This document shows, one piece after another, positions 2,676-6,931 of a DNA stretch of 32,292 nucleotides (positions within the stretch are counted from its first letter, which is position 1; each line of letters begins with the position of its first letter). Under the pieces are notes generated by a model. That model worked only from the letters and a program-made list of their open reading frames with translations. It did no database searches and was not told where the DNA came from. Both the position numbers and the translations under genes were made by a program. The stretch is from positions 1-32,292 of the forward strand of contig JABWAY010000004.1 in the NCBI GenBank assembly GCA_013360825.1, read 5' to 3'. The stretch comes from Candidatus Brocadiia bacterium (GTDB taxonomy: Bacteria > Planctomycetota > MHYJ01 > WSZJ01).

Positions 2676-2933
2676 TCCGGCCGCCGGGGATTCCCCCGTG
2701 CGGCGCGGCGTCCCGGGAGGGGCGATTCCTCCGGGGCTTGCGGTGGGCCTGTCCGGGCCCCCGGACCTCGGCCCGGATCGGGGTCGCCTGCCGGGGGACC
2801 GACATTCGACGTCCGGCATTGCCCCCAATGGGAACACCGGGAATTCTCATTGCAATTCCAATGCGATTCCCGTAGACCATGTGGCCGAACCATTGACCAG
2901 CCATTCTCATTGGACCATTCTCGGGGAGCCCAC

Positions 2934-3470
2934 ATGCCGGAGGTCGATCTGCACGCCGTCAAGGAGTACCTGAAAACACACCTGGCGCATTTCACGGAGC
3001 CGGCGCAGGTCCGGTTCCGGGAGATTCAGAAGCAGGTCAAGAGCCAGTTCGGGTACGGGATGTTCATGCCGCAGCTCTCCGCCCTGATCCGCGAAATCAA
3101 TCCGGCGCTCTCCAAGCCGCCGCGGAAGAAGGCCGGGAAGAAGAAGCCGGCCGGGAAACCCGGGCGGAAACCCGGGCGGAAGGCCGGACGGAAGCCCGGA
3201 CCGAAGCCGGGTCGGAAACCCGGACGGAAGCCGGGCCGGAAACCCGGGCGCCCCGCGGGCACCCGCCGTGGACCCGGTCGCCCCCGGGGAACCGGAAACA
3301 CGGCCGGCCAGTTCCTGATCAGGGTGGGACGGAAGCTCTCGTTCGCCCGCTCCCGGGACCACGTCCAGTCGATCATCGACAAAATGGTCGCCGCCGGACA
3401 GAGCCTCGGGCGCCTCAGGATTTTTTCGCTCTCCCCCGTCCGTGTCTCGACCCGGATCACGCTCGAGTAG
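2934..3470 (+). CDS. AT-hook / histone H1-like basic nucleoid-associated protein
   Basis: MPEVDLHAVKEYLKTHLAHF...; central Lys/Arg/Pro/Gly tract (PPRKKAGKKKPAGKPGRKPGRKAGRKPGPKPGRKPGRKPGRKPGRPAGTRRGPGRPRGTG); SD-like GGGGAG upstream; terminator downstream. Confidence 0.75.
   Translation: MPEVDLHAVKEYLKTHLAHFTEPAQVRFREIQKQVKSQFGYGMFMPQLSALIREINPALSKPPRKKAGKKKPAGKPGRKPGRKAGRKPGPKPGRKPGRKPGRKPGRPAGTRRGPGRPRGTGNTAGQFLIRVGRKLSFARSRDHVQSIIDKMVAAGQSLGRLRIFSLSPVRVSTRITLE
3124..3290 (+). repeat. In-gene tandem repeat encoding (G/P)RKPGRKP units
   Basis: Repeated CGGAAACCCGG / CGGAAGCCGGG units in the nucleoid-protein gene. Confidence 0.8.
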
Positions 3471-3679: not shown

Positions 3680-3853
3680 TCCCGACGCGCCGCCAACGAT
3701 CCGGATGACCTGCCCTTCGGGAAGTCAAGACATCGCCCGTCGCCCGCCCCCAGACCTGTCCGAAAGGATTTGACTTCGCCCCGCCGCAAGGGTTACAAGC
3801 CATATTCCAACCCGGGCGGCCCAGGACGGGCCCAGTGGAGGTAGACCCCAGGC

Positions 3854-4672
3854 ATGTGGATCGTCAAAAACGTCCTTCGCGGCTCGATCCAGATCGAAGA
3901 CCTCAAGGTCAAGATCCCCGCCAAGGACTATTTCGACCTGGATAAGATCGGCCGGGAGCGCGCGGAACAGTCGCGCCAGCTCAAGCTTGCGATGGAGGAA
4001 GGCTACCTCCAGAACGTCAAGAAGTCCGACCCCGGGACCAACGAGGCCGTGCTGGTCAAGGAGGAGACCCGGAGCGAGATCAAGTCGAAGATCGAGGAAC
4101 TGCGCGCCGCGATCGTCAAGTCTCCCGACAAGGAGACGGTCCTGAAGGCGATCGGGGATCTCCGCGGCGTCCTGGCGGGCTCGAAGGATGTGGAACAGAT
4201 CCGCGCCGACTTCGACGACCTGAAGAAGCTGGTCTCCTCCATGGACGGCGACGGCGGCTGGCTCAAGAAGGAATTCGAGAAGCTGCGGACCTCGTTCTTC
4301 GACAAGGAGAAGGACGAGAAGACCCTGATGAAGCGGGAGGTCCTGGAGCTCCGGAAGGCGGTGCTCGAGGAGCGCGGACGGTCCCAGGCGGTGCTCACGC
4401 AGTTCAACGAGTTCCGGGACACCCTCCTCAAGGAATTCAAGGGGCTGCTCACCGGCCTGGTCGCCGCGGGCCCCCGCATGTCGGCCACCGGCGAGGGCGG
4501 CGAGGCCGTCGGCGAGCGCGTGCGCATGACCGAAGTCGAAATCAAGGCCCGCCTCAAGATGCTGGACCAGCGGGAAAAGGAACTGCAGGCGAACTTCGAA
4601 TCCATCGGAAGGAAAGTCGAGGGCGACATGGGTGCGGCCAATCAGGCCGACCTCCTGTCGGACCTCGAGTAA
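3854..4672 (+). CDS. Coiled-coil protein of unknown function, first gene of a pair with an actin-like ATPase
   Basis: 272 aa, long charged helical stretches (SEIKSKIEELRAAIVKSPDKETVLKAIGDLRGVL..., MKREVLELRKAVLEERGRSQAVLTQFNEFRDTLLKEF); no family recognised by eye. Confidence 0.85.
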   Translation: MWIVKNVLRGSIQIEDLKVKIPAKDYFDLDKIGRERAEQSRQLKLAMEEGYLQNVKKSDPGTNEAVLVKEETRSEIKSKIEELRAAIVKSPDKETVLKAIGDLRGVLAGSKDVEQIRADFDDLKKLVSSMDGDGGWLKKEFEKLRTSFFDKEKDEKTLMKREVLELRKAVLEERGRSQAVLTQFNEFRDTLLKEFKGLLTGLVAAGPRMSATGEGGEAVGERVRMTEVEIKARLKMLDQREKELQANFESIGRKVEGDMGAANQADLLSDLE

Positions 4673-4753
4673 CATTGAGAACACGGTGCCGGCGCGGCGG
4701 CTGCGGCCGACCCGCCGGACCCATCGTCCACCTCTGGAAGAAAGGGGCCGGGA

Positions 4754-5836
4754 ATGTGCGCTAAGGGAGTCGACATCGGAACGTGCTTCCTTGTGGGAGC
4801 GGAGTTGAAAGACGGGAAGGAAGTGTTCACGATGGAACGTGACGCGTTCTTCTCGATGCCCAACGAGGACTTTGCAGAGGACATGCTGACGAAGTCGGGC
4901 GCCTTCTACATCATCAAGGGCGACCAGATCTACGTCGTCGGCGAGGACGCGTTGAAATTCTCGATGGTGACGGGAAATGCCAAGGACTATCGCCGCCCGA
5001 TGGCGAAAGGGGTGCTGAACCCCGGCGAGGAAGAAGCGATCTCGATGATGGAGGTGCTCCTCGAGGCCGTCGTCGGGAAGCCGAACTTCCCCGGTGAGAC
5101 CATCTGCGCGACGATGCCCGCGAACCCCGTCGACGCCGAATTCGACGTGACCTTCCACCGCATGGTGCTGGAGCGGTTCCTGAAGAAGATCGGGTACGAC
5201 GTGAAGTGCATCAACGAAGCCATGTGCATCATCTATGCCGAGAACCCGACCGTGACGATCAACAACGAGGTGCTGCCGTTCACGGGCATCGCGCTGTCGT
5301 TCGGGGCCGGCATGGTGAACCTCGCGGCCTCCTGGCGCGCGAAGAAGCTGCTCGAGTTCTCCTGCGGGCGTTCGGGAGACTGGATCGACCGGCAGGTCGC
5401 GAAGGTGCGGAGCGTGCCGGTGTCCAAGGTGCAGAGCCACAAGGAGAAGTACCTCAACTTCGACCGGATCGACCCGACCGACCAGCTCCTGGTCGCCCTC
5501 GAGATCTACTACGAGGACCTGATCCGCTACGTCATCGGGCACTTCCAGCAGCAGCTCAAGATGGCCAATGCGACGATCGACGAGCCGGTCGAGATCGTGA
5601 TCGCCGGCGGGACCTCCAAGCCGCCGGGATTCGTGGACCGGTTCAAGAACATCCTGCGCGAGATCGGTCTCCCGATCCCCGTGAAGGCCGTGCGCCATGC
5701 GAAGGACCCGCTGAAGGCGGTCGCGGCGGGCGCCCTGATCGCGGCGATTTCCGAGGAGAAGAAGCGCAAGGCCGCCTCCGCAGGCGAGGCAGCGCCGAAG
5801 GCTTCGGCCAAGAAGGACGTGCCGCTCATCAGCTGA
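4754..5836 (+). CDS. Actin-like ATPase (ASKHA fold; MreB/ParM/Hsp70-like)
   Basis: 360 aa with phosphate-1-like GVDIGTCFLVGAEL, phosphate-2-like GIALSFGAGMVNLAA, adenosine-type EIVIAGGTSKPPGFVDRFKNIL, and KAVAAGALIAA C-terminal helix. Confidence 0.75.
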   Translation: MCAKGVDIGTCFLVGAELKDGKEVFTMERDAFFSMPNEDFAEDMLTKSGAFYIIKGDQIYVVGEDALKFSMVTGNAKDYRRPMAKGVLNPGEEEAISMMEVLLEAVVGKPNFPGETICATMPANPVDAEFDVTFHRMVLERFLKKIGYDVKCINEAMCIIYAENPTVTINNEVLPFTGIALSFGAGMVNLAASWRAKKLLEFSCGRSGDWIDRQVAKVRSVPVSKVQSHKEKYLNFDRIDPTDQLLVALEIYYEDLIRYVIGHFQQQLKMANATIDEPVEIVIAGGTSKPPGFVDRFKNILREIGLPIPVKAVRHAKDPLKAVAAGALIAAISEEKKRKAASAGEAAPKASAKKDVPLIS

Positions 5837-5856
5837 TTCCGGACCTGAAGACACGA

Positions 5857-5890
5857 GAAGGGGCGGCACATGCCGCCCCTTCTTTTTTTT
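5857..5890 (+). terminator. Rho-independent terminator after the actin-like gene
   Basis: GAAGGGGCGGCA-CA-TGCCGCCCCTTC followed by TTTTTTTT; perfect 12-bp inverted repeat. Confidence 0.93.
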
Positions 5891-5935
5891 GGGGTGGGTC
5901 CGATGCGGGAGGGGGGAAAACAGGGCCGGGGAGCC

Positions 5936-6931
5936 ATGCGCCTGCTGGTGTCGGCGGGGGCGGGGCTGGTGGCGCTGTTGGTGCTGGCCTGGTGGGTGGA
6001 TCTCCCGGCGGCGGGGCGTGCGCTCGGGCGGGCCGGGATCGCGGGGGCCGGGTCGATGGGTCTCCTGTGTGCGGCGGCCCTGGGCCTGCATGCGGCGGCC
6101 TGGCACCTCCTGTTGCGGGCGCAGGGGGTGCGCACGGGGGCGGCGACGACGGGCGCTTCGTTCCTCATGGGAAACGCCGTGGCCTGGGCGACGCCCTCGC
6201 TTTACCTCGGCGGGGAGCCGATCCGGATCTGGCACATTGCGCGGGTGAGCGGTTCGCTGAAGCGGGACGTCGCGGCGACGGTGGTCGTGCACAAGTTTGC
6301 CGAGTTCGCCGGGTTCCTGACGGCGTTTCTTGTCTGCGCGGGGGCGATGGTGTGGAGCTTTGATCTGCCACCGGCGTTGAAATGGAGTGCGGTCGGCCTG
6401 TCGGGAGTGCTGCTGCTGGCGTTTCTGGTGCTGGCGGGGGCGCTGCTGAGGCGGTGGCCGCTGGTCTCGGGGCTGATAAGGAGGGCTGGGCCGCGATGGG
6501 CGGGGGCCCGGGACGCGGCGCGGGACATGGAGGAGCGGATCGGGGAAACGATGCGGGAGCGGCGTGGGGCTTTCTTCGGCTGCCTCGCGCTGGCCGGGGC
6601 GCCGATTGTGCTCGTGGCCGCGAAGCCGCTTGTGTTCTTCGCCTGCCTGGGCCGGACGCTGTCCTTTCCCGAGGTCGCGCTGCTGTTTGTCCTGACGCAG
6701 CTCGTCCTCGCCCTTCAGTTCACCCCCGGTGGCCTGGGGGTCTTCGAGGGCGGAGTGATCGGAGCGTTCGCCCTGATCGGGATCGGAGGGGCGGAGGCGA
6801 TGGCGTACGCCGCGGCGCAGCGGATTGCGGACGCGGTGCTGGTCGGGGGCGGCGTTGCGCTGGCGATCCGGGGTGGGGCCGGGGCGTTTCTCCGCGGAGG
6901 GCCCGACCCTTCCCCGCCTTCGGGTCCCTGA
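5936..6931 (+). CDS. Flippase-like / lysylphosphatidylglycerol synthase-type integral membrane protein
   Basis: Multiple hydrophobic helices; VWSFDLPP..., LALQFTPGGLGVFEGGVIGAFALIGI typical of the flippase-like family. The first in-frame ATG (5870) lies in the terminator, so 5936 or 5903 is the likely start. Confidence 0.75.
   Translation: MRLLVSAGAGLVALLVLAWWVDLPAAGRALGRAGIAGAGSMGLLCAAALGLHAAAWHLLLRAQGVRTGAATTGASFLMGNAVAWATPSLYLGGEPIRIWHIARVSGSLKRDVAATVVVHKFAEFAGFLTAFLVCAGAMVWSFDLPPALKWSAVGLSGVLLLAFLVLAGALLRRWPLVSGLIRRAGPRWAGARDAARDMEERIGETMRERRGAFFGCLALAGAPIVLVAAKPLVFFACLGRTLSFPEVALLFVLTQLVLALQFTPGGLGVFEGGVIGAFALIGIGGAEAMAYAAAQRIADAVLVGGGVALAIRGGAGAFLRGGPDPSPPSGP

Follow-up and report, generated by a model that had tools for sequence, protein, structure and literature searches.

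The locus considered here encodes a 272-aa helical protein directly upstream of a 360-aa actin-like ATPase, and raises the question of which actin family the ATPase belongs to and whether the upstream protein is its dedicated partner. The window is the whole stretch of DNA analysed (32,292 nucleotides), and all positions refer to it. A sequence-only reading had described the layout as these two genes separated by 81 bp and closed by a terminator; both open reading frames and the terminator fold were confirmed. The features of the unit are as follows.

3854-4672, + strand: partner gene (putative type A volactin adaptor), 272 aa
3854-4027, + strand: N-module, residues 1-58, a small strand-helix-strand domain (AF2 pLDDT 83-88)
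4043-4480, + strand: helical rod (AF2 helices in residues 64-209; alignment A1)
4532-4669, + strand: conserved C-terminal tail, residues 227-272, ending ..ADLLSDLE (invariant positions in alignment A1)
4754-5836, + strand: volactin-family actin-like ATPase gene, 360 aa
4766-4789, + strand: phosphate-1 loop (GVDIGTCF); D7, G9 and T10 invariant in 40 members
5294-5329, + strand: phosphate-2 loop (LSFGAGMVNLAA), residues 181-192; S182, G184, G186 and N189 invariant
5753-5833, + strand: basic C-terminal tail of the ATPase, ending PLIS, pI 9.7
5855-5884, + strand: intrinsic terminator at the end of the unit (13 pairs, 4-nt loop, T-run)

The two-gene unit and its ATPase

The terminator has a folding energy of -30.6 kcal/mol (z -6.2). 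Four same-genus homologs of each gene were found in Planctomycetota MAGs, with identities of about 80% for the partner and 90% for the ATPase. Relative to three of the four, dN/dS was 0.17-0.21 for the partner and 0.14-0.21 for the ATPase. Both genes are under purifying selection, and from the homologs and the dN/dS values both are considered real.

The RNase D-like exonuclease, flippase and KPGRK-repeat ORF of the window were tested against Pfam and are ordinary chromosomal genes; no phage genes were seen adjoining the pair in the window using Pfam and NCBIfam. The KPGRK-repeat ORF (2850-3470) has a basic domain and is flanked by tRNA-Val and tRNA-Ala. The flippase, of the LPG-synthase type (5870-6931), lies 3' of the terminator; its true start is probably later, because the listed ATG falls within the terminator. 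A chromosomal role had been argued from a lack of plasmid and phage genes nearby. The observation holds for phage genes adjoining the pair, but the argument against a plasmid or phage origin is weakened because related actin-partner pairs sit in huge-phage contigs.

The ATPase is a clear Volactin and not a new family: residues 3-331 match PF25216 with E = 1.5e-71 (242 bits against a Pfam cutoff of 35). The earlier view that it is not MreB, FtsA, ParM or DnaK (nor PilM) and has an actin fold was borne out by family searches and AF2, whereas the view that it had no assigned kind was not. Its placement outside characterised families is in part contradicted, as Volactin includes a characterised archaeal member, the Haloferax volcanii shape actin (PMC10869688). 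Identity to the megaplasmid-borne haloarchaeal volactins is 38-39%. Salactin was rejected (PF25229, 21.4 against a cutoff of 27.1; NF053533, 25.6 against 400), as was MamK (NF040964, 26.6 against 400). No Pfam match at E up to 1 was obtained for MreB (PF06723), PilM, FtsA, ParM or sugar kinase, and the sole NCBIfam sugar-kinase match was sub-threshold (BglK, 15.2 against a cutoff of 550). A separate true MreB is encoded elsewhere in the genome (G000:C470).

The AF2 model, calculated with 40 homologs, has an actin fold (pLDDT 90.5, pTM 0.87). In Foldseek searches MreB and MamK were the best PDB matches by E-value, and BeeR had the highest TM-score (0.70) among the listed PDB matches. The DxGT, SxGxGxxN and GGT motifs are invariant in an alignment of 40 Planctomycetota members. 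The sequences previously cited for the phosphate-2 loop, the basic tail and the N-module are correct. The serine of the phosphate-2 loop, taken earlier as unusual, is no peculiarity, because it is invariant in 40/40 of these members and is also present in archaea (ISFGAGM in haloarchaeal volactins). The PLIS end was found in 5/5 members of the genus. Class relatives (L046, L048, L050, L053 and L051) carry tandem clade B volactins, of which the second copy carries a long domain at the N-terminus and, in 4/5, shares the PLIS end of the window protein.

The partner and its distribution in Planctomycetota

The partner is modular. Its N-module was modelled by AF2 as strands with two short helices, the rod is variable in length and longer in the window genus than elsewhere (alignment A1), and the tails are conserved and end in ADLLSxL. 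We define the type A family by the N-module and the conserved C-terminal tail, and the window partner qualifies (alignment A1). The tail (residues 227-272) is proposed as the volactin-binding element. The partner had been described as a coiled coil; long helices are present in the AF2 model (including residues 136-209), but the heptad periodicity is not significant, with its peak at 3.6. The whole-partner model is of low confidence (pLDDT 68.5, pTM 0.27) and no structural relatives of it were found in the PDB using Foldseek. The protein is acidic overall (pI 5.75), is related to no curated family and matches no DNA-binding family over the cutoff in Pfam or NCBIfam.

A sample of 390 Planctomycetota genomes was surveyed. 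Volactin was over the cutoff in 133/390, about one third, and trees split these proteins into three clades: A, which includes the window protein, B, and the divergent C. With a profile built from 15 partners, partner homologs were found in 23/390 genomes, including 21/21 of those with a clade A volactin; the clade A genomes are related and the 21 are not independent events. The two genomes beyond the 21 have the N-module only. The partner lies immediately upstream of volactin in 18/21 and is unlinked in three (G178, G260 and G283), where it is encoded elsewhere in the genome with unchanged architecture. The pairing is thus conserved in clade A, as the sequence-only reading had supposed in treating the coding neighbour as a partner, and the contrary case, in which the two genes are not conserved together, is refuted.

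In clade B the helical protein encoded upstream of volactin is a different one, with its own conserved N-module and C-terminal motif. Homology between type A and type B partners was rejected for the whole proteins (hhalign E = 0.09) and for the N-modules (E = 0.65). Clade C falls within the family of Planctopirus limnophila, and the phosphate-2 loop of this clade is degenerate; an SLBB domain is present in 2/3 of the clade C upstream proteins tested. The divergent PF25216 relative of P. limnophila lies at L128 (G318:C1:4826626-4827708). A22 blocks the P. limnophila delta-mreB mutant (PMC6952346), from which another actin target is conceivable. In two further planctomycete loci the volactin domain is followed in the same protein by a PilT-like ATPase at the C-terminus, as judged from sequence motifs (L044, 1224-4202, G023:C10; L124, 5128-8517, G054:C95).

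Most clade A operons of genera other than the window's contain a third gene, for a TPR protein with a predicted TM helix and, at its N-terminus, a conserved motif (EIIIEPDVVPRGTVDL). Using a relaxed sequence pattern it was found in 9/25 genomes searched and was not recognisable in the window genus. In G009 an N-module protein is encoded directly 5' of the TM-TPR gene, without a volactin. FtsZ was not found in 40/40 nearest relatives, the same test being positive in 13/14 control genomes; MreB was present in 40/40.

Viral and archaeal relatives and the shared tail

IMG/VR was searched with the volactin alignment, giving 377 contigs with volactin relatives, of which 80 were kept, some of 200-375 kb. 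Pfam confirmed Volactin in four viral proteins: one is encoded by GenBank LR745208, a 485-kb uncultured phage, and the other three by IMG/VR contigs. In the huge-phage contig set the protein directly 5' of volactin has an N-module homologous to the planctomycete one: hhalign of type A with huge-phage partners gave E = 1e-7 with whole proteins and E = 2.6e-8 with the N-module, the two negative comparisons giving 0.65 and 0.06. In LR745208 a partner adjoins volactin (E = 1.1e-19, huge-phage partner profile). The viral contig L164 (350 kb), with a gene for a minor tail protein close by, encodes a type A-like partner (E = 2.4e-11) about 1.5 kb from its volactin, which groups with clade A (support 97, long branch); the remaining huge-phage volactins form a sister group to clade B. 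A contig binned with a Planctomycetota MAG (L105, G348:C252) carries an LR745208-like gene block that includes volactin and an N-module partner; phages of this kind may therefore infect Planctomycetota or be binned with them.

A second viral group, apparently T4-like, has a single-TM protein of about 100 aa 5' of volactin, ending DD(I/V)xxxxxKLAxLK. L174, L191, L226 and others of L162-L241 have volactin after such a protein with the shared tail, and one contig of L162-L241 has a DNA polymerase next to the volactin locus. Phage volactins and partners were not recognised by PHROGs, and no description of volactin-family actins in bacteria or phages was found in the literature searched.

A similar C-terminal tail is common to all partner types, including the volactin-upstream membrane proteins of two haloarchaea. 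The T4-like tail HMM was run on the C-termini of 3817 ORFs from planctomycete volactin loci, with column-permuted HMMs (n = 200) as the null. Of its ten best matches, eight were upstream ORFs (null 1.1, 1/200), and its best 30 included nine type A partners (null 0.6, 0/200). With the huge-phage tail HMM the number was 7 (null 1.0, 0/200). The phage-partner tail HMM recovered both type A (0/200) and type B (2/200) tails, and the huge-phage tail HMM matched the Natrinema protein 5' of the archaeal volactin, a DUF7139 protein according to Pfam, with 13.6 bits (0/200). Column permutation replaced a rank-sum test of tail scores, which was rejected since a reversed HMM also gave p of about 1e-13 from composition. 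The tails resemble each other over a short stretch of 15-34 columns, and profiles compared one by one give weak matches (P = 2.7e-4 to 0.01), so homology of the tails across partner types is likely, not proven. The two haloarchaeal volactins (L160, 4977-7032; L161, 4920-7023) lie directly 3' of the membrane protein (DUF7139 in Natrinema), which has tail-like repeats in its C-terminal region.

Proposed function and comparison with known systems

The best explanation, which we consider probable, is that the locus is a two-gene cytoskeletal unit of an ATP-driven volactin filament and a dedicated modular adaptor. Volactin would bind ATP and assemble into a filament, on which the upstream protein, as its dedicated adaptor, would dock by the C-terminal tail. 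The helical rod may space or dimerise the molecule, and the N-module may hold a cargo or an envelope or assembly structure that the filament would position or scaffold. The predicted single-TM TPR protein of the third gene could supply an envelope anchor. Archaeal volactin, the only family member known to do so, forms dynamic, tip-anchored filaments in vivo (PMC10869688). The Volactin match, the identity to haloarchaeal volactins, the actin fold, the 21/21 pairing, the upstream partner of clade B, the TPR third gene and the shared tail favour the filament and adaptor, as do the retention of the partner in three genomes although unlinked and the N-module homology to phage partners, which was obtained with negative controls and reproduced in LR745208. 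The same three unlinked genomes also count against it, together with the shortness of the tail similarity, the low-confidence partner model, the partner's lack of a PDB relative and the window genus lacking a recognisable TPR gene.

The gene functions would be the same if the partner were anchored via another protein without direct filament contact and adjacency reflected co-regulation only. The G009 arrangement is consistent with this, but a C-terminal tail common to otherwise unrelated volactin-upstream proteins argues for contact, and we regard indirect anchoring as unlikely. A DNA-segregation pair like ParM/ParR, AlfA/AlfB or AlpC/AlpA, with a centromere-binding partner and a DNA-pushing actin, is suggested by the phage kin of volactin, by Salactin, which acts in DNA partitioning (PMC10746226), and by the known prophage actin AlpC (PMC4446434). 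Such a partition system is less likely because no iteron-like direct repeats were found in 3680-3860 or 4660-4760 and the partner has no DNA-binding family over the cutoff; with an acidic partner and neighbours of chromosomal type, it is judged quite unlikely.

Volactin might instead be a platform like PilM or MglA that organises the machinery of type IV pili or surface motility. A link to motility is conceivable because two planctomycete proteins (in G023 and G054) fuse volactin to a PilT-like ATPase, and a gene beside one type B locus looks DUF4388-like by eye; the fusions are, however, long-branch outliers, no PilT homolog was seen near any other volactin locus and the ATPase has no PilM match, which makes a pilus platform very unlikely. 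A recent phage origin of the pair, as a remnant with no host role, is highly improbable. The closest partner N-modules outside clade A do sit in huge-phage contigs, and the viral volactin of L164 groups with clade A (97), but both genes are under purifying selection, the partner is kept in 21/21 clade A genomes of many families, unlinked cases included, and phage genes do not adjoin the pair in the window.

The filament with its dedicated adaptor may be part of a wider scheme. We tentatively suggest, as something short of our favoured expectation, that bacterial, haloarchaeal and huge-phage volactins share one partner plan, with a common volactin-binding C-terminal tail and a swappable N-terminal anchor, which might be a TM helix, the N-module, the B-module or DUF7139. 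If this were true, the partners would represent a cross-domain, virus-shared filament-adaptor system with a docking code readable from sequence, and would be the volactin-binding factor still missing for archaea. Candidates suggested by the shared tail are the DUF7139-type membrane protein in haloarchaea and the upstream gene in phages. How Planctomycetota, lacking FtsZ, divide and shape their cells is not understood (PMC6952346). Volactin and its partner may have a role in the shape or division of such a cell, and the conserved adaptor offers a handle on the filament's job there. The pair, with side-by-side relatives in giant bacterial viruses, points to an unstudied modular filament-adaptor system.

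Among known systems, MreB/RodZ shares the actin fold and the idea of an envelope-linked adaptor, but the window genome encodes a separate true MreB. ParM/ParR, AlfA/AlfB and AlpC/AlpA share the two-gene logic of filament and adaptor, and a ParR-type adaptor docks by a terminal element; searches of the window pair found neither centromere repeats nor a DNA-binding family. MamK with its MamJ or Mad coiled-coil partners likewise combines an actin with helical adaptor proteins and is the closest PDB profile match of the window ATPase (E = 2.6e-8), which nevertheless scores far under the NCBIfam cutoff given above and has a partner unrelated to curated families. BeeR, the Verrucomicrobiota actin (8r2n; PMC11929497), is similar in structure (TM-score 0.70), in its occurrence in PVC bacteria and in its unknown function; its sequence match to the window ATPase is weak (profile E = 0.027), and the latter lacks the disordered N-terminal extension of 30-50 aa, its first strand beginning at residue 4. 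Volactin itself (VolA, HVO_2015; PF25216) shares with the window ATPase the Pfam family, the level of identity given above for haloarchaeal members and the phosphate-1 and phosphate-2 loops including the serine; whereas the two archaeal loci examined have a membrane protein upstream (DUF7139 in Natrinema), the window pair is bacterial and has a putative dedicated adaptor with an N-module.
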